Positions 50,777 to 64,000 of a DNA stretch of 64,000 bases are shown here, one piece after another (the first letter of the stretch is position 1; each line of letters starts with the position of its first letter). The stretch is taken from assembly GCF_014207705.1 (NCBI RefSeq), contig NZ_JACHIU010000001.1, positions 4,518,501-4,582,500 of the forward strand. Direction: 5' to 3'. Below the pieces are notes generated by a model. The model saw only the letters and a program-made list of their open reading frames with translations, was not told the origin of the DNA and searched no databases. This DNA comes from Sphaerisporangium rubeum (GTDB lineage Bacteria; Actinomycetota; Actinomycetes; Streptosporangiales; Streptosporangiaceae). The translations under genes were made by a program, and so were the position numbers.

Positions 50777-51763
50777 TCAGGCGCGAGCGAGCACCAGAGC
50801 GAAGTCGCCGGCGGGGTCGGTGTAGATGTGGTCGACGGCGAGGCCGGCGGCGGTGAGCTCGGCGCGCAGGCCGGGGAGGCGGAACTTGGCGCTGATCTCG
50901 GTGCGCATCTGCTCGCCGTCCGCGAAGGACACCTCCAGCCCGAGCGCGCGCACGCGGACCCGCATCGGCCGGGTGGCGCGCAGCCGCATCTCGATCCACC
51001 CGGCGGTCTCGTCGTACCGGGCCACGTGCGCGAAGTCATCGGGGACGAAGTCCGCGTCGAGTTCGTGGTTGATGACGTGCAGCACGTTGCGGTTGAACTC
51101 GGCGGTGACGCCGGCCGCGTCGTCGTAGGCGGCGACCAGGCGGCCGGTGTCCTTGACCAGGTCGGCGCCGAGCAGGAACGTGTCGCCGCGGCTCATCGTG
51201 GCGCGCAGCGCGCCGAGGAACGCGCGGCGCGCGGCGGGGTCGAGGTTGCCGATGGTCCCGCCGAGGAAGGCCGTCATCCGGGGGGTCGATCTCGGCAGGC
51301 CGGCGAGTTGGTGCTCGAAGTCGGCGCGCACCGGCTGGACGGTGAGCCCGGGGTAGCGGATGCCGAGGCGGCGGGCCGCCGACAGCAAGGTGGTGGCGTC
51401 GACGTCCACCGGGGTGTAGGCGGCCAGGCCCTTGGCGGTGAGCGCGTCGAGAAGCAGAGTGGTCTTCTCGCTGGTACCCGAACCGAGTTCCACCAGGGTG
51501 CCGGCGGCGGCGCGCGCGGCGATGTCGCCGGCGTGCTCACGCAGGATCGCCGTCTCACGGCGGGTGGGGTAGTACTCCGGCAGGCGGGTGATCCGGGAGA
51601 ACAGGTCGCTGCCGCGCGCGTCGTAGAACCACTTCGGCGGCAGGTGCTTGGGGGTCGCGGTGAGGCCGGTGCGGACGTCGTGCTCCAAGGCGCGGCGCAG
51701 ATGGTCCTCGCCGAGGTGGTCGACGAGGCGCACGGACGAGACAGGCGAACGGCTGACAGGCAC
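50777..51763 (-). CDS. egtD: L-histidine N-alpha-methyltransferase (EgtD)
   Basis: Trimethylates histidine to hercynine with SAM, the first step of ergothioneine synthesis. 328 residues from GTG 51763 (GGGAG 6 nt upstream). The SAM-binding motif is TLVELGSGTSEKTTLLLDAL; LPPKWFYDARGSDLFSRITRLPEYYPTRRE is characteristic of the family (shown in part: KWFYDARGSDLF), as is FLGGTIGNL. It is last in the egtA-egtB-egtC-egtD transcription order. Confidence 0.94.
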   Translation of the reverse strand: MPVSRSPVSSVRLVDHLGEDHLRRALEHDVRTGLTATPKHLPPKWFYDARGSDLFSRITRLPEYYPTRRETAILREHAGDIAARAAAGTLVELGSGTSEKTTLLLDALTAKGLAAYTPVDVDATTLLSAARRLGIRYPGLTVQPVRADFEHQLAGLPRSTPRMTAFLGGTIGNLDPAARRAFLGALRATMSRGDTFLLGADLVKDTGRLVAAYDDAAGVTAEFNRNVLHVINHELDADFVPDDFAHVARYDETAGWIEMRLRATRPMRVRVRALGLEVSFADGEQMRTEISAKFRLPGLRAELTAAGLAVDHIYTDPAGDFALVLARA

Positions 51764-51792
51764 GGGTGTCTCCCGGTTCGTTGACGGTCGGG

Positions 51793-52500
51793 TCACAGAG
51801 GGTCGGCGCGCACGCCGTCGCCGGTGACGACAAGCAGGTGGCGGTCGGGGACGGGACGCCAGGCGGGGTCGTCGTCGAGCGGTTCGCTCGCGACCAGGAC
51901 GCCGTCGGGGTCCGCGCGCAGGTAGAGGGTGTCGCCCCAGGTGGTGGCCGCGACGGTGGCGCCGTCGCAGGCGAGCAGGTTCAGCCGGGCCTCCGGGTCC
52001 TTGCCCCCGGTCCTGGTGACCGTCTCGGCGAGCGCGGCGCCGAGAGAGGTGCCGGCCTGGAGCAGGCCGAAGACACCGGCGGCCAGCCAGGCCGCGTCGC
52101 AGGTGCTCTCGGCGTCGGCGGCCAGGCAACGCACGGCGTCCCTGGCGGCGCGGCCGTTGAGGCTGAGCAGGTGGCGGCCGTCGGTGAACGGCGCGGTGGC
52201 GGTCTCCTCGATCGGCATGCCGGCGGTGGCCGACCGCACGGCGGCCAGCAGGCAGCCCGAGCGCGCGACCTGCGCGAGCGCCGGCAGGTTGGCATCCGAC
52301 CAGATCGGGATCGTCCTGCGGTACCTGACGGGCTCGGCGCGGGCCGGGTCGTACCAGCCCATGCCGAAGCCGTCGGCGTTGACCCGGCCGTGGCGCTGCA
52401 TGCGCGGCGCGTACGACTGGGTCAGCAGGCCGTGCTCCGGTTCCCCGATGAGGGACGCGAGCGCGCGAGGTGCGCCGAGCCAGGCGGCGTGACGGCACAT
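51793..52500 (-). CDS. egtC: Gamma-glutamyl hercynylcysteine sulfoxide hydrolase (EgtC)
   Basis: A class II (Ntn) glutamine amidohydrolase-like enzyme removing the gamma-glutamyl group in ergothioneine synthesis. 235 residues beginning MCRHAAWLG, so Cys2 becomes the N-terminal nucleophile. NADGFGMGWYD, AAVRSATAG and the late LLVVTGDGV match the family. 44 bp after egtB and 29 bp before egtD. Only a weak GGGGGT precedes the ATG. Confidence 0.92.
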   Translation of the reverse strand: MCRHAAWLGAPRALASLIGEPEHGLLTQSYAPRMQRHGRVNADGFGMGWYDPARAEPVRYRRTIPIWSDANLPALAQVARSGCLLAAVRSATAGMPIEETATAPFTDGRHLLSLNGRAARDAVRCLAADAESTCDAAWLAAGVFGLLQAGTSLGAALAETVTRTGGKDPEARLNLLACDGATVAATTWGDTLYLRADPDGVLVASEPLDDDPAWRPVPDRHLLVVTGDGVRADPL

Positions 52501-52544
52501 CTACGCGCACCCCCGGGGCCCGCGCGACGGGCCGGCGGGCCGCA

Positions 52545-53846
52545 TCAGGCCTGCTCCGGGGTGGCGGAACGCGCGCAGCGGAAGCCGGAGAAGATCTGCC
52601 GGCGGATGGGGTGGTCCCAGTTGCGGAACGTCGTGCGGACCGCGGCGGGGTCGGCGGCCCAGGAGCCGCCGCGCAGCACCCGGTATCCGGAGCCGAAGAA
52701 GACCTCGCTGTACTCCGGATAGGGGAAGCTGCGGAACCCGGGGTAGGGCTGGAACGTCGAGGCGGTCCACTCCCAGACGTCGCCGACCATCTGCTCGGCG
52801 CCGCAGGGGCTCGCACCGGAGGGGTAGGCGCCGATCGGCGCGGGCCGCGCGGCACGGTGACCGAGGTTGGCCCGGCCGGGTCCCGGGTCGTCCTCCCCCC
52901 AGGGGTAGGTGCGGGTCCGGCCGGTCCCGGGATCGAAGCCGCAGGCCTTCTCCCACTCGGCCTCGGTGGGAAGGCGGCGGCCGGCGAAGCGCGCGTAGGC
53001 GTCGGCCTCGTACCAGCAGACGTGCTGCACCGGCTCGTCCATCGGCACCGGCTCGGTACGGCCGAAGCGGGTGCGCCACCAGGTGTCCCCGTCCCTGGTC
53101 CAGAACAGCGGGGCCACGGCGCCGGTCTCCGTGCGCCAGCGCCACCCCTCGGGGGTCCACCATCGGGGGTCGTCGTAGCCGCCGGCGTCGAGGAACGCGG
53201 TGTAGGCCTGGTTGCTCACCGGGAACCGGTCGATCCAGTACGCCGGCAGGTCCACCCGGTGCGCGGGCCGCTCGTTGTCGTAGGCCCACGGCTGCGTGTC
53301 GGTCCCCATGAGGAACGACCCCGCCGGCACGAACACCTCCTCGGGGCCGCCGGGCCGTCCCGGCGGGAGCGCGGCGTCACGCACCAGGCCCGGCTCGCCG
53401 GACAGTTGAAGCGTGGCCAGCATGGTCTCGTCGTGCTGGTGCTCGTGCTGGATGACCAGGCCGAACACGAAGCCCTGCCGGTGCAGCGGGTCGGGCGAGT
53501 CGAAGTCCACCGCGGACAGGACGTCGAACACCCGGCCGCGCACCCCTTCGATGTAGCGGCGCGCCTCGGCGGGCCGGAGCATCGGCAGGGAGGGACGGTC
53601 CTTGCGGGGGGTCTTGAAGGCGTCGTAGATGTCGTCGATCTCGGGGCGGACCGGCTCGATGCCGCCGGCGGCCCGCAGCACCCACAGTTCCTCGTAGTTG
53701 CCGACGTGCGCGAGGTCCCACACCAGGGGGGACATCAGCGGTGAGTGCTGACGGGTCAGCAGGTCGTCCTCGGCGTCGGTGTAGGTGAGCGAGCGGTCGC
53801 GCACGGCCTGAAGCTGCGCGGCGATCCGTTCCTTCAGGTCGTTCAC
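52545..53846 (-). CDS. egtB: Hercynine sulfoxide synthase (EgtB)
   Basis: A non-heme Fe(II) enzyme joining gamma-Glu-Cys to hercynine with O2. 433 residues from GTG 53846 (AAGGA 5 nt upstream). The N-terminal DinB-like domain provides the iron ligands (His of WDLAHVGNYEELW and the HEHQH motif in VIQHEHQHDETML). The C-terminal formylglycine-enzyme-type domain shows FLMGTDTQPW, RLPTEAEWEKAC, GDVWEWTAS and YRVLRGGSW. Overlaps egtA by GTGA (53843-53846). Confidence 0.94.
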   Translation of the reverse strand: MNDLKERIAAQLQAVRDRSLTYTDAEDDLLTRQHSPLMSPLVWDLAHVGNYEELWVLRAAGGIEPVRPEIDDIYDAFKTPRKDRPSLPMLRPAEARRYIEGVRGRVFDVLSAVDFDSPDPLHRQGFVFGLVIQHEHQHDETMLATLQLSGEPGLVRDAALPPGRPGGPEEVFVPAGSFLMGTDTQPWAYDNERPAHRVDLPAYWIDRFPVSNQAYTAFLDAGGYDDPRWWTPEGWRWRTETGAVAPLFWTRDGDTWWRTRFGRTEPVPMDEPVQHVCWYEADAYARFAGRRLPTEAEWEKACGFDPGTGRTRTYPWGEDDPGPGRANLGHRAARPAPIGAYPSGASPCGAEQMVGDVWEWTASTFQPYPGFRSFPYPEYSEVFFGSGYRVLRGGSWAADPAAVRTTFRNWDHPIRRQIFSGFRCARSATPEQA

Positions 53847-55048
53847 AGGTGTCCTTCCATCAGCCGGGTCCCGATCGGGGGCCCGTCGAGGAGCGCGGCG
53901 GCCGGGGACCGGCCCGGGGTGACGTGACGGTCGGCGAAGTCCGCCACCGCGCGGATCAGGCCGGGGTGCGCGCCGAGACGAGGCAGCGCGTCGAGCGCGG
54001 CGTGGAAGCACTCCTGCGCCGCGCGCCGCAGCGGCGCACCGGCCAGACCGTCCCGCGCCGCGGTCCGCCACAGGCCGCGGCACGGCTCGGCGGCGGCGCA
54101 GGCGGCCCCGGCCGCCTTGTCGTCGGTGATCAGGGCATGGGTGACGGCCACGCAGACGGGCCACACGGCCGGGGACTGCGCGTCGAGGTAGCGGATCTCC
54201 AGCCAGCCCCGTGGACGCACCGGCGGGAACACGGTGGTGGCGTGGTAGGCCACCTCGGCCTTCGTGACGCCGGTCGCGGCGATCCTGTCCCGCAGCGTCG
54301 TACCGTCGCGCACCTGCCGGCAGCGGCCGTCGCCGTCCCGCAGGACCATCAGGCGCGCGTCCAGCAGGTAGGCGGCCCACGCGGCGGCCGGGTCCGCCGC
54401 GGCGGGCACCGGGGCCGTGCGGGTCCGGTCGAGGTTCTCCCAGACCTCCTGCCGGCCCGACATCCAGCCGGTCGGCCCGCGGGCCCCGAGCGGCGAGTTG
54501 GCGAAGGCCGCGACCAGGACCGGCCCGAGCAGGTGCGCGCGCTCCCAGCGGACCTCAGGCGCCGCACCGAGATCCAGGTTGACCTGGATCGACGCGGTCG
54601 AGCACATCATGAGCGGCCCGTACGGCGCACCGAAGTGCCTCGCCATCGCCTCGTACCTCGGCTCGGTGAGCTGCCGCACCGGCGGCCGCACCGGATCCAG
54701 GCCCACCCCCGCCGGCGCCAGACCCGCGTCCAGCAGCGCGGCCCTCACCGCCTCCACGTCCGCGCCGAGCCGCCGCACCGCGCCGGTCAGCGTCCCCGGT
54801 GGCCCGGACAGTTCGAGCTGCCCCCCCGGCTCGAACGTCACCCTGCTCCCCCCCGGCAGCTCGGGAAGCGCCGCCACGACCTCGCCGACCGGCACCGGCC
54901 GCGCGGGGTCCCGCCGGTCGTACACCAGGAACTCCAGCTCGGCCCCGACGCGCTCCTCCCCCGCAACCGCGGCGAAGCACTCCCGCGCGAACTCCTCGAC
55001 CCCCGCGGCGTCCCGGATCAGCACGTCCTGCGTCAGCCCGCTCGTCAT
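53843..55048 (-). CDS. egtA: Glutamate-cysteine ligase (EgtA)
   Basis: Makes gamma-glutamylcysteine for EgtB. 401 residues of the GCS2 type, with GAELEFLVYD, FEPGGQLELSGPP (metal/ATP-binding Glu residues), MMCSTASIQVNLDLG and RGWLEIRYLDAQ. First gene of the egt operon; GGGGGG precedes the ATG by a few bases. The cluster stops at egtD. No egtE-type PLP lyase is found in the window. Confidence 0.93.
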   Translation of the reverse strand: MTSGLTQDVLIRDAAGVEEFARECFAAVAGEERVGAELEFLVYDRRDPARPVPVGEVVAALPELPGGSRVTFEPGGQLELSGPPGTLTGAVRRLGADVEAVRAALLDAGLAPAGVGLDPVRPPVRQLTEPRYEAMARHFGAPYGPLMMCSTASIQVNLDLGAAPEVRWERAHLLGPVLVAAFANSPLGARGPTGWMSGRQEVWENLDRTRTAPVPAAADPAAAWAAYLLDARLMVLRDGDGRCRQVRDGTTLRDRIAATGVTKAEVAYHATTVFPPVRPRGWLEIRYLDAQSPAVWPVCVAVTHALITDDKAAGAACAAAEPCRGLWRTAARDGLAGAPLRRAAQECFHAALDALPRLGAHPGLIRAVADFADRHVTPGRSPAAALLDGPPIGTRLMEGHL

Positions 55049-55146: not shown

Positions 55147-56430
55147 TCACAGCAAGGACGTGGCCGGTGGCGCGCTCGGTGCGGGACGGTCGTCGGGGAC
55201 CGGCTCCGGGGCCGTCGTCACCTCCGGGGCGGACGGCAGGGACGTCTCCCCCACGAGGCCGGTTCCCTCCAGCAGGGACATGTGGGTGCGGACGAAACGC
55301 GCGGCGAGGTCGGCGAAGTCGCGGATGGCGGAGTTCCGCGTGGTCGCGCGGACCTGCGCGATGACCGGGAAGACCTTGCCGTGCGCCACGCGCAGGCGGG
55401 TCACGGCGGTCTGGTCGAACTCCTCGCCGGTCTTGAGGAAGATCTCCATGATCCAGCCCTGCTGCTCGTCGGTCGGCTCGTCGGGAAGCGGCACCCGGAG
55501 CCGCGCGGCGACCGCGCGGACGTCCGCGTCCAGCAGCTCGTGCTGCCGCGCGATCTCGCCGAGGTTCTTGCGGGTCTTCTCCCCCACGGCTCGGGCCGCG
55601 GCCTCACGTCCCACGGGGATCTCCCACAGTCCGGCCTGGCGCACCTTGACGAGCAGGTCGATGTCGGCGGGGCTCAGCGGGCCGGTGTCACGCGGGCTCT
55701 GGTCCAGCAGCTTGGTCGCGGGTGGCGCGACCGGGGCCGGCTCGCCGGGAGGGACGACCTCCGGCGGAGGGCCGGCGTCCGGCGGCGCGGGGATCGCCGC
55801 CGAGTCGGCGAAACCGGTGGCCTCCAGCAGGTCCATGTGCGCGTTGACGAACCGCGCCGCGAGCTCGGCGAAGTCACGCACCAGCGTGTTGCGGGTGGTG
55901 GCGCGCACCTGCGCGATCACAGGGAAGACGGTGCCGTGCGCCTGGCGGAGCCGCTTCACGGCGGTGCGGTCGTACGCCGTGCCCGACTTGCCGGAGATCT
56001 CCGCGATCCACCCGAGCTGCTCGTCGGTGGGGGTGTCCGGCAGCGTGACCCGCAGCTTGCGCGCCACGGCCCGTACGTCGGCGTCCAGCAGCACATGCTG
56101 CCGTGCCATCTCCCCGAGGTTGGTCCTCGTCCGGGGACGCGCCGCCTTGGTCCTGGCCTCCCGGCCCACCGGGATCTCCCACAGCCCCGCCAGCCGTACC
56201 TTCATCAACAACACCCGGTCCGCCGGGGACAACGGCCCCCACTCGGTGTCCACGAAGTCCCCTGCCGCCGCCGGAGCCGCCGCGGGCCCCGCGGTCCCGG
56301 TGGCCGCCACGAACGCCGGCACGTCGCCGTCGGGCCGCGCTCCCTCCGGCGCCGCGCACGCGCCGACGAGCTGAAGCACGACGAGCCCGCTCGCCGCCGT
56401 GACCGCGATCCTGCCACCCGCGTACCGCAT
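55147..56430 (-). CDS. Lipoprotein with two tandem DUF4142 domains
   Basis: 427 residues from ATG 56430. Lipobox LVGAC follows a short signal (IAVTAASGLVVLQLVGAC), so it should be anchored outside the membrane by Lgt/LspA. Two homologous halves of about 150 residues each: PLSPADRVLLMKVRLAGLWE ... ARQHVLLDADVRAVARKL, and PLSPADIDLLVKVRQAGLWE ... ARQHELLDADVRAVAARL. The halves are closely similar along their length and joined by a Pro-rich linker. DUF4142 folds like a ferritin-type helical bundle; function unknown. Downstream of an ECF sigma/anti-sigma pair. Confidence 0.88.
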   Translation of the reverse strand: MRYAGGRIAVTAASGLVVLQLVGACAAPEGARPDGDVPAFVAATGTAGPAAAPAAAGDFVDTEWGPLSPADRVLLMKVRLAGLWEIPVGREARTKAARPRTRTNLGEMARQHVLLDADVRAVARKLRVTLPDTPTDEQLGWIAEISGKSGTAYDRTAVKRLRQAHGTVFPVIAQVRATTRNTLVRDFAELAARFVNAHMDLLEATGFADSAAIPAPPDAGPPPEVVPPGEPAPVAPPATKLLDQSPRDTGPLSPADIDLLVKVRQAGLWEIPVGREAAARAVGEKTRKNLGEIARQHELLDADVRAVAARLRVPLPDEPTDEQQGWIMEIFLKTGEEFDQTAVTRLRVAHGKVFPVIAQVRATTRNSAIRDFADLAARFVRTHMSLLEGTGLVGETSLPSAPEVTTAPEPVPDDRPAPSAPPATSLL

Positions 56431-56486
56431 GGACTCCGCCCCTTCCCGCGTGGCCGAGGCCTGGCTCGCGCTCGGCGTCACCGGAA

Positions 56487-56600: not shown

Positions 56601-56876
56601 TCAGGGACGGCGGGGGTCGGGAGAAGGCCGGTCAGGGACGCGGGAGGCGCGGAAGGCGGCGAGGAGGCGGGAGCGGACGCGGGAGGAGAGCGCGGGTGCG
56701 GGGAGGCCGCCGAGTGCGGTGACGGTGGCGCGGAGTTCGGTGAGGTACTCGGCGCAGGACGCACAGGCGGTGAGGTGGCGGTCGAAGTTCTGGCGGGTGG
56801 CGGCGTCCAGGGCGTCGTCGAGGTAGAGCGGGGTGAGTTCCCCGAAGTCCTCGCAACTGAAACGCTTCACTTTCAC
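56601..56876 (-). CDS. Zinc-binding anti-sigma factor
   Basis: 91 residues from GTG 56876 (GAGG 5 nt upstream). The ZAS motif HLTACASCAEYL (H-x3-C-x2-C) lies in the helix after DDALDAATRQNFDRHL. The C-terminal part is short and has no membrane helix, so it is a soluble anti-sigma. It lies 34 bp after the sigma gene. The Cys pair could release zinc on thiol oxidation, as in RsrA; this is inferred from the family. Confidence 0.85.
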   Translation of the reverse strand: MKVKRFSCEDFGELTPLYLDDALDAATRQNFDRHLTACASCAEYLTELRATVTALGGLPAPALSSRVRSRLLAAFRASRVPDRPSPDPRRP

Positions 56877-56910: not shown

Positions 56911-57513
56911 CTACTCCGTTCGCTTCACGGTAGCGAAGTAACCCGCCAGACGGCCACGCACGGTGGTGCGGGCCCGATGGAGGAGGACACGCTGATTGGC
57001 CGGGGTGAGATCAAGGATCTCGCAGACCTCCTCCGAGGTGAATCCTTCCACGTCCCGCAACATGATCACGCTACGTTGCCGCGCCGGCAGGTCCGCCAGC
57101 GCGGCCGCGATCGTGATCCGCGCCTCCGCGGCCAGCGCCTCCCCCTCAGGCGTCGGCCACCGTCCCGGCGAGTCCCACACACCGGACGGCATCTCCGGCG
57201 GCCCACCGGCGTCACCGAACGCCGCACTCCACGGAACGCTGCGGCTCTCGCGCACACCACGCTTGACCGCGGTGTTGACCACGATGCGATAGATCCACGT
57301 CCTCAGGGAGCACCGCCCCTCGAAGTCGTCGACGGCCCCGACGACAGCCAGCCAGGTGTCCTGCACGACCTCCTCTGCGGACTCGGATGTGGACACATAG
57401 CCGCGGGCCACTCTCAGCATGCCCGGCGACCAGGCGTCCAGCACCGCCGCGAACATCGCCTCGTCCCCAGCCCTCAGGGCCGCGACGACGACGTCGTCCG
57501 GAGGCAACGCCAC
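56911..57513 (-). CDS. ECF RNA polymerase sigma factor
   Basis: 200 residues from GTG 57513 (GGAGG 8 nt upstream). Region 2 covers about 15-85 (DAWSPGMLRVARGYVSTSESAEEVVQDTWLAVV; key part SAEEVVQDTW), with RTWIYRIVVNTA. Region 4 covers about 130-190 (LADLPARQRSVIMLRDVEGF, SEEVCEILDLTPANQRVLLHRAR in outline). Partner anti-sigma lies directly downstream. An SOS-box-like palindrome lies 55-70 bp upstream. Confidence 0.92.
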   Translation of the reverse strand: MALPPDDVVVAALRAGDEAMFAAVLDAWSPGMLRVARGYVSTSESAEEVVQDTWLAVVGAVDDFEGRCSLRTWIYRIVVNTAVKRGVRESRSVPWSAAFGDAGGPPEMPSGVWDSPGRWPTPEGEALAAEARITIAAALADLPARQRSVIMLRDVEGFTSEEVCEILDLTPANQRVLLHRARTTVRGRLAGYFATVKRTE

Positions 57514-57905: not shown

Positions 57906-58162
57906 TTGGACGAGACGCCGGGGGTGCCGGCCACAGCCCCCAGCACCACGACGAAGGTCGTGTCAGGCCCTCGGCGGTGACCCCTTCAGGTTGGGAACGA
58001 GACGCCGAAGGTGCCGGCCACGGTCCCCAGCACCACAACGAAGGTCGTGTCAGGCCCTCGGCGGTGACCCCTTCAGGTTGGGAACGAGACGCCGAAGGTG
58101 CCGGCCACGGTCCCCGGCACGACGACGGAGGTCGTGTCGGGCCCTCGGCGGTGACTGCTTCA
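57906..58162. repeat. Tandem repeat, three copies of 87 bp
   Basis: Copies start near 57906, 57991 and 58078 and repeat every 87 bp (the first is 2 bases short). Each contains GACGCCG, GGTGCCGGCCAC, AGCACCAC and GGTCGTGTC, ending in TCGGCGGTGAC. Copies 1 and 2 differ at about 5 of 77 aligned positions; copy 3 is more diverged. Each has an inverted repeat GGTGC...GCACC. 87 is a multiple of 3, but no supported gene covers them; they end 26 bp before the stop of the 824-aa gene. Confidence 0.85.
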
Positions 58163-58187: not shown

Positions 58188-60662
58188 TCAGCGGTCGGTG
58201 TCGCAGACCGAGCAGTGGGTGAGGCCTGCGGCTTCGGCGTCGGCGCGGGACATGGTCTCCAGCGAGCCGGGATCGGAGCCCTTGATCAGCGGGCAGTTGG
58301 AGCTGTGGAAGCGGCGCGTGCCCGAGATGACCTTGACCATGCCGGGACGGCGGAGTTGCGCCGTGACCGACCTGTCCCCGTCCCCGCCGGCCCTCGCCGA
58401 CTCAGGCGCACCGGTCCCGGCGCTCTCCGACTTGACGGGCTCTGACCCGGTGCTCTCCGACTTGGCGGCTTCTGACTCGGCGGACTCTGACTCGGCGCTC
58501 GCCGACCCGACGCTCCCCGGCCTGGCGGTCTCCGGCCTGCCGCTCGCCGGGCTGGCGGTCTCCGGACCGATGCTCGCCGACTTCGCGGGCTCCGACTTGG
58601 CAGGCTCCGACTTGGCGCTCTCCGGCTTGGCAGGCTCCGGCTTGGAGATTCTCTCTCTGCTCGGCTCCGCCGATGAAGTCTCCGCCTTGACCGGGTCCGT
58701 TCCGGAGGTCTGCGGCTTGGCGGGCCTGCCTGCGGGGTCTTGCGGTGTGGCGGGCCTGGACCCAGGAGGCTTCGCCTTGACCGGCTCCGTCCCGGACCTG
58801 GTGGGCTCAGAGCCGGTCCTCGTGGGCTCCGGGCCGGTGACGTCGGGCTTGGCGCGCTGACCTTCGGGGGCGAAAGCCTTGGCGGGTCCCGTCGTGGAGG
58901 CCTCCGCCTTGGCGGGGTTCGCGCCGGAGTCAGGTCGCGCCGGCTTCGTCTCGCCTGGCCCGGTCCTGGCGGCCGGAGACGTGGCCCCGGCTTCGGCGGG
59001 CCGGCCGCCGGCCTGCTCGGTACCGGCCGGGGCACCGGGGGTGGTCTTCCTCGGGGAATCCGCCGCACGGGTCTCATCGGTGGCCCGATCGCGCTCGGGT
59101 GACCGGGTCTCGCGCTCGCCGTCCGGGACGGCGGGAGCGGGCTGTGCGGCCGTGCCGGGGCGCTTGAAGGCCTCGAAGGGGCTGACCGCCTCGGGGAGCA
59201 CCACGGGCTTCGACGGGACGACCGGCGGGGTGCCGGTGCCGCCGGGTGGCGTGGACCCGGTGGAGGCGGACCTTCCGGTGAACCATGTGTCGGCCGTGCG
59301 ACCCGAGGAGCCGGATCCGGTGCGCGGCAGCCGTCCGGCCACGGTGGCGTCGGACGACCGGTCGGCGTCAGTGGGACGTTCCACGTCCCCAGAGGGCCGC
59401 CGTCCCTCCGCGGACCGTTCCGCGTCCCACGGCCGTACCGCCTCTCCGGGCCGTGCGGAGTCCCCGGGCTTCGCCGCGTCGCGCGGTCGTACCGCCTCCG
59501 TGGATCGTGCGGGGTCCGCCGACCGTTCCGCGTCCCGCGGCCAGACCGCCTCCCCAGGCCGTGCCGGATCCCGGTGGCGATCAGTCTCTCCGGGCCGCGC
59601 GGGGTCGCCGGACCGGGACGTGGCTCCGGATCGCGCGGGGTCGCCGGACCGGGACGTGGAGGCGGGTCGCGTGGGGTCGGCAGGTCGTGCGGGACGCTCG
59701 GGCCGTTCGCCGGCCGGCGGTCGTCTGTCGTCCTGCGTGCGCCTGAAGTCCTCCGGTCGTCCTGGCTCCCTGGACCATGCCGGGGTCTCGGGCCGGGACG
59801 GGGAGGCGGGTCGTCTCAGGGGGTCGGACGGGTCCGCGTCCGTGTGGTCTCTCTCGTCCGGCCGGTTAGGCACCGGCGGTCGAGAAGAGGCGGGACGGGG
59901 GGTGGCGGGTGAAACTTTCAGGGGGCCGGTCGTCGCCGGGGGGAGGGCCGGGGGGTCGGCGGGAGGCAGGGACGGGTGGGGTGCGGCGGGGAGAGCGCGG
60001 GAGGACGGGGGGGACGGGGACGCGGTGCGGGCCGTCTCGGGGACGGAACGGACGGTGGCACCGGGGGATGGCGGACGGGCCGAGGGGTCGGCCGTGGTCG
60101 CCGGGAGGCAGGTGGTGCAGGCGGAGAAGCCTTCCTCGCGCGCCTCCTCGTACGTCAGCTCCTCGTGCTCACGCCCCGCGAGCTGGCGGCACCCGGGCAG
60201 GTGGAAACGCCTGCGGCCGGGGATGACGAGCACGATGGTGTCGGGGGACGGCCGTGCGCCGGCGGGCGGTCGTGGCCCGCCGGAGGCGGCGAAGGCCCCG
60301 GTCGGACCCTGCGCGGCGGTGGTTCGCGCCGTGGCGGGGTGGGCCGCCGCAGGCGTGGACACCGGCCGGGTCAGGGTGGGGGATGCACCACGAGCGGGAG
60401 CGGCCGCGCCGGCCATGGCTCCGGGTCTCGCCATCGTGCCGGCACCGGCACCGACCGGCGGCATCGGCGGCGCCATGGCCGCCTTCCCACCGCCGGAGGG
60501 GAACAGGTGATGGCGTCGCAGCAGTGCCCCGATCATCAGGAAGACCGCGGACAGCACGCTGACCACGATCGACCACATGACCAGGACCGCTGTTCCGGTC
60601 ACCACGCCCGCGACCAGGAGGCCGAAGGCGAGGACCACCAGAATGGCGCTGAGGTAGATCAC
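58188..60662 (-). CDS. Membrane protein with two terminal FHx3C...CxxC modules, beside divIVA
   Basis: 824 residues from GTG 60662 (GGGAG 6 nt upstream). Two membrane helices at the start (IYLSAILVVLAFGLLVAGVV; MWSIVVSVLSAVFLMIGALL). A first knuckle follows at about 152-187 (RRFHLPGC ... GFSACTTC). Then come about 590 disordered residues rich in Pro, Ser, Arg, Asp and Glu, with loose repeats such as RSGDPAR, RPGEAV and EPAKSEPAKS. A second knuckle ends the protein (about 783-824, RRFHSSNC ... GLTHCSVC). The H-x3-C/C-x2-C pattern resembles Ada-type zinc sites. It starts 45 bp after divIVA. Function unknown. Confidence 0.8.
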   Translation of the reverse strand: MIYLSAILVVLAFGLLVAGVVTGTAVLVMWSIVVSVLSAVFLMIGALLRRHHLFPSGGGKAAMAPPMPPVGAGAGTMARPGAMAGAAAPARGASPTLTRPVSTPAAAHPATARTTAAQGPTGAFAASGGPRPPAGARPSPDTIVLVIPGRRRFHLPGCRQLAGREHEELTYEEAREEGFSACTTCLPATTADPSARPPSPGATVRSVPETARTASPSPPSSRALPAAPHPSLPPADPPALPPATTGPLKVSPATPRPASSRPPVPNRPDERDHTDADPSDPLRRPASPSRPETPAWSREPGRPEDFRRTQDDRRPPAGERPERPARPADPTRPASTSRSGDPARSGATSRSGDPARPGETDRHRDPARPGEAVWPRDAERSADPARSTEAVRPRDAAKPGDSARPGEAVRPWDAERSAEGRRPSGDVERPTDADRSSDATVAGRLPRTGSGSSGRTADTWFTGRSASTGSTPPGGTGTPPVVPSKPVVLPEAVSPFEAFKRPGTAAQPAPAVPDGERETRSPERDRATDETRAADSPRKTTPGAPAGTEQAGGRPAEAGATSPAARTGPGETKPARPDSGANPAKAEASTTGPAKAFAPEGQRAKPDVTGPEPTRTGSEPTRSGTEPVKAKPPGSRPATPQDPAGRPAKPQTSGTDPVKAETSSAEPSRERISKPEPAKPESAKSEPAKSEPAKSASIGPETASPASGRPETARPGSVGSASAESESAESEAAKSESTGSEPVKSESAGTGAPESARAGGDGDRSVTAQLRRPGMVKVISGTRRFHSSNCPLIKGSDPGSLETMSRADAEAAGLTHCSVCDTDR

Positions 60663-60707
60663 GGAGAACTCCCAGTCGCGGGTCGGCGTAAACCCTTGAC
60701 CTTTACC

Positions 60708-61577
60708 TTAACGCCGGTCGGTGTGCGGAGCGTCAACCGGGAAGGCACCGGAGTGCGGCGCCGGCTCGGGAGCGCCGAACGGGTTGCTCTGGCCACCCTG
60801 GATCTGCTGGGGGCCACCAGGCGCGCCGGCGTGGGACATGGCGGGGGCGCCACCCATCTGGCCGCCGACCACGGGGAACCCGCCGCTGCCCTCGGCCGCG
60901 ACGTTCAGCTCGGCGAGCTGGTTCTCCAGGTAGAGCTTCAACCGGCTGCGGTACTCACGCTCGAAGCTGCGCAACTCGTCGACCTTGCGCTCCAGCTCGT
61001 CGCGGGTCTGCACGAGGGAACCCATCGCCTGGCGGTGCCGCTCCTGCGCGTCACGCTCCAGCGTCTCGGCGCGGCCGCGCGCGTCGCCGATGATCTGCTC
61101 GGCCTGGCGGCGTGCCTTGCCGAGGATCTCGTCGGCCTCGCGGCGCGCACGGGTGACCGTCTCGTCGGCCTCGCGGCGCGCGTCGGCGATGGCCTGGTCG
61201 GCGGTCTGCTGTGCGAGCGCGAGCACGCGGGCCGCGGTGTCCATGTTGTCCTCGGCGGGAGGCATCCCCATCCCGACCGGCACCGGCTCGGGCCTGATCG
61301 GCTCCGGCTGCTTCATGGGCTCCGGCTGCGGCATCATCATCTCGGGCTTGGGCTCGGCGACCGGCGCGGGGGCCATCGCCATGCCCATGCCACCGGGGAC
61401 CTTGCCGCGCAGGCACTCGGTCAGCTTGGCACGCAGTTCCTCGTTCTCCTGGATGAGGCGGTCCAGCTCGGCCTCAACCTCATCGAGGAAGGCGTCGACC
61501 TCTTCCTCGTCGTACCCCGGCCGCAGCCGGGTGGTACTGAATTGCTTGTTCCGCACATCAGCGGGCGTCAGCGGCAT
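60708..61577 (-). CDS. divIVA: Polar growth protein DivIVA/Wag31
   Basis: A membrane-curvature-sensing scaffold that marks hyphal tips and directs wall growth. 289 residues: the N-terminal lipid-binding domain (MPLTPADVRNKQFSTTRLRPGYDEEEVDAFL, key part RPGYDEEEVDAFLDEVEAEL), a Pro/Met-rich linker (about 65-110), a long coiled coil (about 112-225) and a Gly/Pro-rich tail. AAGGAG precedes the ATG. It stands between yggT and the 824-residue gene. Confidence 0.94.
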   Translation of the reverse strand: MPLTPADVRNKQFSTTRLRPGYDEEEVDAFLDEVEAELDRLIQENEELRAKLTECLRGKVPGGMGMAMAPAPVAEPKPEMMMPQPEPMKQPEPIRPEPVPVGMGMPPAEDNMDTAARVLALAQQTADQAIADARREADETVTRARREADEILGKARRQAEQIIGDARGRAETLERDAQERHRQAMGSLVQTRDELERKVDELRSFEREYRSRLKLYLENQLAELNVAAEGSGGFPVVGGQMGGAPAMSHAGAPGGPQQIQGGQSNPFGAPEPAPHSGAFPVDAPHTDRR

Positions 61578-61627: not shown

Positions 61628-61915
61628 CTAACGAAGCACGGACACAATGTTGATCATGAGCAAGACCACAATGAACAGCACTGTGAAGCTCAGGTCAAAG
61701 GCCACCGTACCCAACCGGAGCGGGGGAATGAAACGGCGGAGGAACTTGAGAGGCGGATCGGTCACCGTGTACGTGGCCTCCGCGAGCACCAGGACGACCC
61801 CGGTGGGGTGCCAGGAGCGCGCGAACGCCTGCACGGTCTCAAAGATCATCCTGCCGATCAGCAGGACGAGGTAGATCGCGAGGATCCCGACGAGGATGTC
61901 ACTAATGATCCCCAC
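61628..61915 (-). CDS. YggT family membrane protein
   Basis: 95 residues from GTG 61915 (GGGGAGG about 12 nt upstream). Two membrane helices (IISDILVGILAIYLVLLIGR and FDLSFTVLFIVVLLMINIV) flank the family loop with LAEATYTVTDPPLKFLRRFIPP. Found next to divIVA and sepF throughout actinobacteria; implicated in osmotic tolerance in other bacteria. Confidence 0.9.
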   Translation of the reverse strand: MGIISDILVGILAIYLVLLIGRMIFETVQAFARSWHPTGVVLVLAEATYTVTDPPLKFLRRFIPPLRLGTVAFDLSFTVLFIVVLLMINIVSVLR

Positions 61916-61998
61916 GGTCGTGCCCCGCCTCCCCACCGACGTGCCTGCCACGGTCCGAGCGGGCCAGGTGTGGCCGTTCACTGTTCATAGGTGGAACT

Positions 61999-62505
61999 CT
62001 AGCTCTGGTTGAAGAACCCGCGTTCCGCGATTCGGGCCTTGTCCTCGGCGGTCACCTCGACATTGGCAGGGGACAACAGGAACACCTTGTTGGTAACACG
62101 TTCAATGCTGCCATGTAGGCCAAAGACCAGACCTGCCGCGAAATCGACCAGCCGCTTCGCGTCGCTGTCGACCATCTCTGTCAGATTCATGATGACAGGG
62201 GTGCCTTCGCGGAAGTGCTCCCCGATCGTGCGGGCCTCGTTGTACGTGCGAGGGTGAAGTGTCGTGATCCGCGCCAGATCGGTCGTACGGCGCTCGACGA
62301 CGGGCACCCCCGACCGGGGGGCGGGCACCGGGCTCTCGGGCTCCTCAAGGCCCTCCTGCGGCGCGCCGGTGCCGCGCTCGTCGCGGCGGCGGTCGGCGTA
62401 GTCGTCGGGATAATCGTCCTCGTCGGCGTAACCGCCGTAGTCGGGGTAGCGGTCGTCCTCCACGAGACCGAGGTAGACCGCCATCTTGCGCATCGCGCCG
62501 GCCAT
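61999..62505 (-). CDS. sepF: Cell division protein SepF
   Basis: Anchors and bundles FtsZ at the septum. 168 residues: an N-terminal amphipathic membrane-binding helix ([14 protein letters not shown]), an acidic Asp/Tyr-rich linker, and the SepF core (about 75-165) with [40 protein letters not shown] and [14 protein letters not shown] 62505 was chosen; the ATG four codons later is nearly as good. In actinobacteria SepF is the main FtsZ membrane tether. Confidence 0.94.
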
Positions 62506-62611: not shown

Positions 62612-63322
62612 TTACCTGACGAAGGGCGTCCGGCGGCCGAGCAACGCCGTACCGACCCGCACGTGTGTCGCGCCGTGTGCGACGGCCTCCGCCAGATCTC
62701 CGCTCATTCCGGCGGAAATCATCGACGCTCGTGGATGCGCCGCGCGCAGGGCCTCCGCCACCTCGCGCAGGCGCGCGAACGCCGGGGCCGGGCTCGTGCC
62801 GAGCGGTGCCACCGCCATGACGCCGCCGAGCACGAGTCCCTCCTGCTCGGCGACGGCGTCCGCCACGGCGGGGACGCCGTCCGGTGTGACGCCGCCGCGT
62901 CCGGGGTCGTCGTCCAGTGCCACCTGGACCAGGCAGGTGACCAGCCGTCCCGCGGCCACGGCCCCCCGGCCGAGCGCGGCGGCGAGCCTCGGCCGGTCCA
63001 CCGAGTGGATCACGTCGGCGTAGGACGCCACGGAACGGGCCTTGTTGGTCTGGAGCTGACCGACGAAGTGCCACCGCACCGGCAGGCCGGCGCAGTCGCG
63101 CGCCTTGGCGGCGGCCTCCTGGTCGCGGTTCTCCCCGATGTCGCGCACCCCGAGCCCGCTGAGGATCCGGATGTCGGACACCGGGTAGGTCTTGGTCACC
63201 GCGACGAGCGTGACCTCCTCGCGTGGCCGGCCGGCGGCGGCGCACGCCTCGGCGATCCGCCGCTCCACCTGTGCCAGGCCCGCCGCGATCTCCTCGCGCC
63301 GCGCGGTGCTCACATCGGTCAT
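62612..63322 (-). CDS. yggS: YggS family PLP-binding protein
   Basis: A PLP homeostasis protein without known enzyme activity. 236 residues of the alanine-racemase-like barrel. The PLP Lys is in VTLVAVTKTYPVSD; GENRDQEAAAKA, WHFVGQLQTNKARSV and ISAGMSGDLAEAVAHGATHVRVG are family motifs. It directly follows ftsZ (114 bp), without the pgeF/yfiH gene usually found between the two. Confidence 0.93.
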   Translation of the reverse strand: MTDVSTARREEIAAGLAQVERRIAEACAAAGRPREEVTLVAVTKTYPVSDIRILSGLGVRDIGENRDQEAAAKARDCAGLPVRWHFVGQLQTNKARSVASYADVIHSVDRPRLAAALGRGAVAAGRLVTCLVQVALDDDPGRGGVTPDGVPAVADAVAEQEGLVLGGVMAVAPLGTSPAPAFARLREVAEALRAAHPRASMISAGMSGDLAEAVAHGATHVRVGTALLGRRTPFVR

Positions 63323-63436: not shown

Positions 63437-64000
63437 TCACTTGAGGAAGTCGGGAACGTCCAGTTCCTCTTCCTGGTCCTCGAACACGACCTGGCGGCGC
63501 CGGTTGGGGTCGGTGACGCGGGAGGTGATGGGAGTGGGGGGCTCGGGGGTGGGCCGCGGGATGGTCAGCGGCGCCTGGTCGTCGTCGGCGTCGCGCGCCA
63601 CCGCCGTCTCACGCGGCGTGACCGGATCGGCCGCGGCCGCCGAGGGCTGCTGCGCCGGCGGCGCCGGTGTGGCGGACTGCGCGGACGCCGGCGGGAACGG
63701 ACGCACGGGGGCCGGTCGCTGCTCGGCGCGGGAGGGCTCGGCGCGCGGAGGCTCGGGCCGGGACTCGGGCCGGGACTCGGTGCGCGCGGGCTCGGCCCGC
63801 GGCGCGGTGAACGACGACGGACGGGGCTGCGGCGCCGCCGGCGCGGACTGCGTGCCCGCGGCCGTGGCCGTGCCGGCCGTCCCCTGTGCCTGCGAGCCGG
63901 CCGCCGGACGGGAGGCGGGCTGTGGCCGGGAGACCGGCTGCGCCGGCGCCGGTTTCTCGTCGGGCTCGTCGAACCCGGCGGCGATCACGGTGACGCGGAC
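63437..64000 (-). CDS. ftsZ: Cell division protein FtsZ, C-terminal part (runs off the window)
   Basis: 187 codons of the C-terminal end; the GTPase domain lies beyond position 64000. It begins within the last strand of the core (VRVTVIAAGFDEP), continues as a linker of roughly 150 residues rich in Pro, Ala, Arg, Glu and Ser, and ends with the conserved tail DVPDFLK that binds SepF. The linker is longer than in many bacteria. Confidence 0.95.
   Translation of the reverse strand, partial: VRVTVIAAGFDEPDEKPAPAQPVSRPQPASRPAAGSQAQGTAGTATAAGTQSAPAAPQPRPSSFTAPRAEPARTESRPESRPEPPRAEPSRAEQRPAPVRPFPPASAQSATPAPPAQQPSAAAADPVTPRETAVARDADDDQAPLTIPRPTPEPPTPITSRVTDPNRRRQVVFEDQEEELDVPDFLK

Follow-up and report, generated by a model that had tools for sequence, protein, structure and literature searches.

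The window analysed here, a stretch of 64,000 nucleotides of Sphaerisporangium rubeum from a genome that consists of a single contig of 7.5 Mb, carries a cluster of genes encoded on the minus strand, as are, unless stated otherwise, all genes and protein segments of the window mentioned below. In order of transcription, the genes for a yggS-family PLP protein (62612-63322), SepF (61999-62505), a YggT-family membrane protein (61628-61981) and DivIVA (60708-61577) are followed, 45 bases past the divIVA stop, by a reading frame for an 824-aa protein (58188-60662). DivIVA was assigned by Pfam (E 6.7e-20), the nearest NCBIfam model being Wag31 with 193.9 bits, below its cut-off of 260, and the protein is closest to those of other Sphaerisporangium loci (92% to L002 and L003). 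SepF-family matches above cut-off occur three times in this genome (G000), one of them in this cluster. The gap between divIVA and the 824-aa frame (60663-60707) showed no terminator-like or sigma-70-like site by scan, such scans being weak in this group of organisms. A preliminary description of this DNA had placed the gene directly after divIVA among genes of polar growth and division, and the DivIVA, YggT and SepF families found here bear this out.

Several other features surround this cluster. A reading frame at 63437-63988 ends in DVPDFLK, which we take to be an FtsZ-type tail. Downstream of the 824-aa frame lie genes for an ECF sigma factor (56911-57513) and a zf-HC2 anti-sigma-like protein (56601-56876), both recognised by Pfam, and the intergenic region between the ECF sigma gene and the frame holds a tandem repeat (57910-58162; period 87, 2.9 copies, 92% matches). 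Further on, a 444-aa protein (55147-56481) shows by eye two similar repeats around LWEIPVGREA, and the genes at 50777-55048 presumably form an ergothioneine biosynthesis cluster.

The 824-aa protein starts with GTG and consists of five successive parts. A hydrophobic hairpin (residues 1-50, 60513-60662), read as two transmembrane helices from alignment, charge count and profiles, is followed by RRH and by a membrane-proximal spacer rich in Pro, Ala and Gly (residues 51-138, 60249-60512), which is predicted to be disordered (AlphaFold pLDDT <50 at residues 57-64, 70-108 and 110-130). A first small Cys/His module (module 1, residues 139-190, 60093-60248; candidate ligands H154, C158, C182 and C185) leads into a disordered, repeat-rich linker (58356-60107, overlapping the final residues of module 1 as delimited here), and a second such module (module 2, residues 770-824, 58191-58355; candidate ligands H786, C790, C817 and C820) closes the protein, its last ligand C820 lying four residues from the end. 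The linker, built on several short tandem repeats, comprises 587 aa with 17.7% Pro, 15.5% Ala, 11.8% Ser, 28.6% charged residues and no Cys; all six Cys of the protein are located within the modules. The translation confirms the gene and the architecture given in the preliminary description, namely two hydrophobic helices, an FHx3C...CxxC module, a long linker and a second module at the very end. Searched at full length, the protein matched no Pfam or NCBIfam family above its cut-off, and with E values up to 1 allowed, phmmer found no match in the PDB. On the opposite strand, an ORF of 543 aa was dismissed as mechanical.

The gene was compared across 81 divIVA loci, that is, 80 loci of Streptosporangiaceae or MAGs near them, kept from 495 confirmed divIVA loci, plus that of Nonomuraea gerenzanensis. 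Hairpin, module 1 and module 2 are found in one frame just downstream of divIVA in 73 of the 81 loci, so that the architecture reflects more than chance, and a chance ORF in GC-rich DNA is ruled out. Five more loci have the hairpin and module 1 only: in L028, L050 and L078 the contig stops after module 1 and truncates the gene, and in L035 (Spongiactinospora sp.) and L059 (a MAG) a complete ORF lacks module 2. Being absent from these last two, module 2 is dispensable. In the window the gene directly follows divIVA, as it does in 78 of the 81 loci; of the other three, two are contigs that stop before the gene (L019, L048) and one has it spread over two frames (L073). Under the start rule used, 77 of 78 genes begin with GTG, and the gap to divIVA measures 39-58 bases in 66 of 78, the rest ranging from 0 to 101 except for L034 and L077 (near 250). 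With the window included, module 1 (79 sequences) shows a mean pairwise identity of 83%, the hairpin (79 sequences) one of 79% and module 2 (74 sequences) one of 62%; linker length, over 74 sequences, spans 104 to 651 aa with a median of 426. Module 1 is thus present in every complete family relative seen and module 2 in nearly all, as expected if the modules noticed in the preliminary description are conserved.

The modules had initially been likened to zinc knuckles. The CCHC zinc knuckle, C-x2-C-x4-H-x4-C, is a small Cys/His motif too, whereas the modules here read H-x3-C ... C-x2-C; this difference in ligand order and spacing, together with the matches described next, rules it out, and the modules resemble instead the N-terminal zinc domain of Ada. 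In a profile search of the PDB, four Ada N-domain entries came out on top (E 0.015-0.12), followed by survivin at 0.87; the Ada alignment spans positions 6-51 of 51 and pairs the module His with the Cys that opens the Ada motif, a residue that we take to be the methyl acceptor Cys38. A module model computed by AlphaFold without templates (pLDDT 93.7) had only one plausible Foldseek match, Ada 1wpk, with a modest score (prob 0.85, TM 0.56, rmsd 4.1, E 0.18), the other four hits having a prob of 0.02 or less. Because PDB entries went into the training of AlphaFold, these two lines of evidence are independent only in part. Pfam Ada_Zn_binding reaches 12.3 bits on the 824-aa protein and 19.9 bits on the best relative (L163), against a cut-off of 23; it matched 6 of 25 module 2 sequences (best E 0.0094), and the module 2 of the window, searched alone, matched no Pfam family. 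The similarity to Ada is therefore below the usual thresholds, each score being modest.

Five positions are invariant across 45 diverse modules (H16, C20, A36, C44 and C47). Since the first motif searches themselves demanded [FYWL]H and Cys, this early invariance of the ligands was partly built in; the four ligand columns were then masked, the profile was rebuilt, and all loci were searched. The masked profile gave 276 module hits at E up to 1e-3, of which 275 have H,C,C,C at these columns; the exception, truncated where its locus ends, has H,C. Zinc binding by the modules is thus likely, judging from their residues. All 276 hits have His at the position of the Ada methyl acceptor, which excludes methyl transfer of the Ada type through the acceptor residue. 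We read the modules as Ada-like domains that have lost their acceptor, and not as members of the Ada repair family.

The Ada domain is a zinc-thiolate sensor of alkylation, and the modules might therefore act as a redox or alkylation sensor at the tip, in which oxidised or alkylated sites would lose zinc, alter a contact and so couple stress to polar growth. The invariant Cys and His, and the confinement of all six Cys of the window protein to the modules, would suit such a function. However, a structural site should have invariant ligands just as much, the acceptor position holds His in every hit, and no regulatory domain is attached according to Pfam and NCBIfam, which makes a sensor distinctly unlikely. 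The Ada N-domain also binds DNA, and module 1 displays three invariant arginines (150, 152 and 159) and a nearly invariant one (164) among 24 sequences, as might be expected if the modules held the nucleoid or origin region near the membrane marked by DivIVA. The modules of the window are, however, not clearly basic (6 K/R versus 8 D/E in module 1, 8 K/R versus 6 D/E in module 2), and DNA-binding families all stayed below their Pfam and NCBIfam cut-offs; we regard such a tethering of DNA as very improbable.

The distribution of charges suggests how the hairpin is oriented. Residues 2-20 contain no Lys or Arg in any of 79 hairpins and the turn averages 0.65, while the flank after the second helix holds about 2.1, a value that is partly built in because the flank was located by its basic motif (present in 79/79). 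Counted without the motif, Lys and Arg are commoner after residue 44 than before it in 16 of 17 distant hairpins, and equal in L163. By the positive-inside rule, both ends of the hairpin are predicted to be cytoplasmic. In the AlphaFold model the hairpin forms a single long helix, whose confidence drops at residues 21-30; Actinomadura-like members have a polar stretch between two hydrophobic segments, which favours a hairpin despite the single helix of the model. Rv2144c, a small membrane protein encoded after wag31, is presumably the mycobacterial counterpart. A table of exported proteins induced in vivo (PMC5405230) lists it as 'Unknown, TM', and such a listing sits uneasily with a cytoplasmic C-terminus.

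Beyond the family, a profile of the N-terminal part matched 91 of 150 genomes of the order (E up to 0.01). Linkage at this level was taken from 20 selected regions among the weaker of these matches, and in all 20 the gene encodes two modules and has divIVA upstream; at every place examined within the order it thus lies beside divIVA, which upholds the synteny noted in the preliminary description. One genome, G050, contains a second N-terminal profile match elsewhere (C1:3916154-3916525, minus strand; E 1.7e-19, a 205-aa frame).

A search across the phylum matched 25 of 296 genomes, the source genome included, at 28 places besides the window. Twenty of these were fetched, of which L156 belongs to the class of the window and the others are labelled as the same phylum only. 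Eight lie in a sepF cluster (L154, L156, L158, L159, L160, L163, L166 and L171). A DivIVA gene is present in six of these, identified by Pfam in L158, L159, L160, L166 and L171 and by a local profile in L156; no divIVA was detected in the clusters of L154 and L163. Outside the class, the hairpin protein is accordingly encoded in a sepF cluster at 7 of 19 fetched places, five of them with a DivIVA gene. Among the eight, L166 consists of the hairpin only, L171 has hairpin and module in separate frames, and the other six combine hairpin, linker and one C-terminal module. L155 and L157 sit at contig ends and were assigned neither to the cluster nor elsewhere. The remaining ten places (L161, L162, L164, L165, L167-L170, L172 and L173), all outside the class, encode similar modules and have no sepF-cluster gene within the DNA fetched; in some of them the two-helix segment is of another kind. 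The neighbours tested in L167, L170, L172 and L173 match Pfam ABC_tran and look by eye like the branched-chain amino acid type. These unlinked places may represent a second home of the module.

The presence of similar modules on other membrane proteins away from the cluster, with ABC_tran matches among all four neighbours tested, raises the question whether the 824-aa protein is an unrelated membrane protein of metal handling that stands beside divIVA through shared transcription only. Against this, three families outside the class (f12, f17 and f20) again show linkage to the sepF/divIVA cluster, and a tree of 45 modules over 51 columns, although weakly resolved, separates the unlinked modules from the linked ones. 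A branch in this tree (96/89) parts module 1, the linked single modules and other twin modules on one side from module 2 and the unlinked modules on the other. We consider a mere bystander of the operon quite improbable. No order of module duplication is drawn from the tree, since two of its linked single modules (L155 and L157) are without genomic context and L159 and L160 were left out of it.

Within the class, SepF was matched in 114 of 118 genomes, and the stretch after sepF was fetched for 40 of them, mostly one per family. Thirty-five of these loci contain divIVA, and 14 of the 35, from 10 families including that of the window, have a hairpin gene directly after it; no hairpin match was obtained elsewhere in the 40 loci (E up to 1). 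Eleven of the 14 hairpins were seeds of the profile (all except L183, L187 and L205). A hairpin profile made from Streptosporangiaceae only recovers nine of them at E <0.02, followed by L176 (E 0.72) and L206 (E 2), and misses L187, L205 and L209 at E up to 10. Two modules are present in L184 and L202 and at least one in L183 before its contig ends, the other 11 having none. In L205, L206 and L207, tentatively Nocardiopsis-like, a hairpin and a long acidic linker follow divIVA, with no modules. The other 21 divIVA-positive loci, including two that look Streptomyces-like (L188 and L211), show no hairpin relative, so the hairpin gene is not needed for DivIVA function in general.

Since module 2 is dispensable and relatives with one module or none exist, the twin modules are not the essence of the family, which is rather the membrane hairpin beside divIVA. 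The hairpin might then be the working part, for instance by conditioning the membrane for DivIVA, with linker and modules as accessory decoration. It is indeed the most widely shared part, and frames of 55-59 aa that consist of the hairpin alone adjoin divIVA in L182, L198, L209 and L210. Module 1 is nevertheless at least as conserved as the hairpin within Streptosporangiaceae (83% versus 79%), and this reading appears to us rather unlikely.

The linker, free in length, often carries a recurrent motif in the family. When three-residue patterns shared by half or more of 80 linkers were compared with three shuffles, W-F-x-R alone was conspicuous (51 linkers versus 0.0 in the shuffles), the next best pattern having a ratio of 2.3. 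Of the 74 complete linkers, 55 contain WF and 49 contain WF.R, compared with maxima of 6 and 2 over 500 shuffles, both counts being inflated by the relatedness of the sequences. WF is lacking from 19 linkers, most of them short: 16 measure 104-314 aa and three 390-590 aa. The local form in the window, WFTGR (59271-59285), is inexact, with two residues between F and R. A second short motif, PFEAFKR (59160-59180), is shared only with close relatives (L002, L003, L005, L007 and L010). WF is absent from all 20 distant members of the order, half of which (10/20) have PSAW followed by P or S, and the module-less Nocardiopsis-like relative L205 has NWFARR. All of these resemble short binding motifs.

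Taken together, we propose, with about even confidence that it is right, that the 824-aa protein is a cytoplasm-facing, membrane-anchored scaffold of the DivIVA machinery at the tip or septum, encoded in the divIVA operon. The protein would be made together with DivIVA, its hairpin would be embedded in the membrane with two cytoplasmic ends, and each module would bind one zinc through His-Cys-Cys-Cys as a rigid binding surface. The modules would not serve as alkyl-transfer sites, because the methyl-acceptor Cys of Ada is a His here. Module 1, as the most conserved part, would make the main contact with a conserved partner at the tip or septum, either DivIVA itself or a protein that DivIVA gathers, whereas the linker, free in length and often equipped with W-F-x-R, and module 2 would reach for further, lineage-specific partners. 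The protein would have a role in growth or division. The neighbourhood is no proof of contact, as a co-transcribed gene may act elsewhere. The preliminary description had seen in the protein a tether or scaffold made of twin modules joined by a flexible chain. The twin modules, the membrane anchor and the long variable linker fit this idea, and a tether is plausible, but its emphasis on the twin modules does not stand, since they do not define the family.

To our knowledge, there is as yet no settled account of how the peripheral coiled-coil protein DivIVA of actinobacteria gathers its clients and keeps them at the tip. We tentatively suggest a broader and somewhat less assured possibility, namely that the hairpin protein encoded after divIVA inside and outside the class is a previously unrecognised core partner of actinobacterial DivIVA, to which an Ada-derived zinc module, its acceptor Cys altered to His, and a linker with a Trp motif would have been added, so that the filamentous Streptosporangiales would have a membrane scaffold of long reach between DivIVA and its clients. 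The membrane protein encoded directly after divIVA is a ready candidate, and one that studies of Streptomyces as a model might overlook, neither of the two Streptomyces-like loci having yielded its gene. If the proposal is true, the metal domain of Ada would have been re-used without its repair chemistry. The residues H154, C158, C182 and C185 and the WF motif are offered for testing. In the literature searched, which lay largely outside subscription journals and bioRxiv, we found no description of the gene, in agreement with the preliminary description, which knew of none; Rv2144c came up in a single paper, as the table entry cited above, and MSMEG_4216 in none of the papers listed by the search concerned.

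Compared with known systems, the modules have in common with the Ada N-domain (PF02805; 1adn, 1wpk, 1u8b, 1zgw) their length, the order of elements, the second Cys, the last C-x2-C and the Ala-containing helix before it. They differ from it in having His in place of the methyl-acceptor Cys, in their association with a membrane hairpin, in usually occurring as twins and in their location beside divIVA. Ada further contains an AraC helix-turn-helix and a methyltransferase domain, neither of which was found in the 824-aa protein (Pfam and NCBIfam, E up to 1). DUF6233 (PF19746), a family with no function known, gives a subthreshold match to module 1 (E 0.0019, 18.7 bits versus a cut-off of 27.6) and also matches several relatives, always below the curated cut-off in the cases seen. 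The class locus L176, which we take to be of the Rv2144c type, encodes a protein at the same place after divIVA and with a similar hydrophobic hairpin (E 0.72 with the Streptosporangiaceae-only profile), which differs in its length of 140 aa and in having no modules. Finally, PacL1 of mycobacteria, which belongs to membrane platforms of metal efflux and is tied to a P-type zinc exporter, shares with the 824-aa protein, by its published description, a membrane segment, a low-complexity cytoplasmic region and a C-terminal metal-binding motif (PMC9374683).
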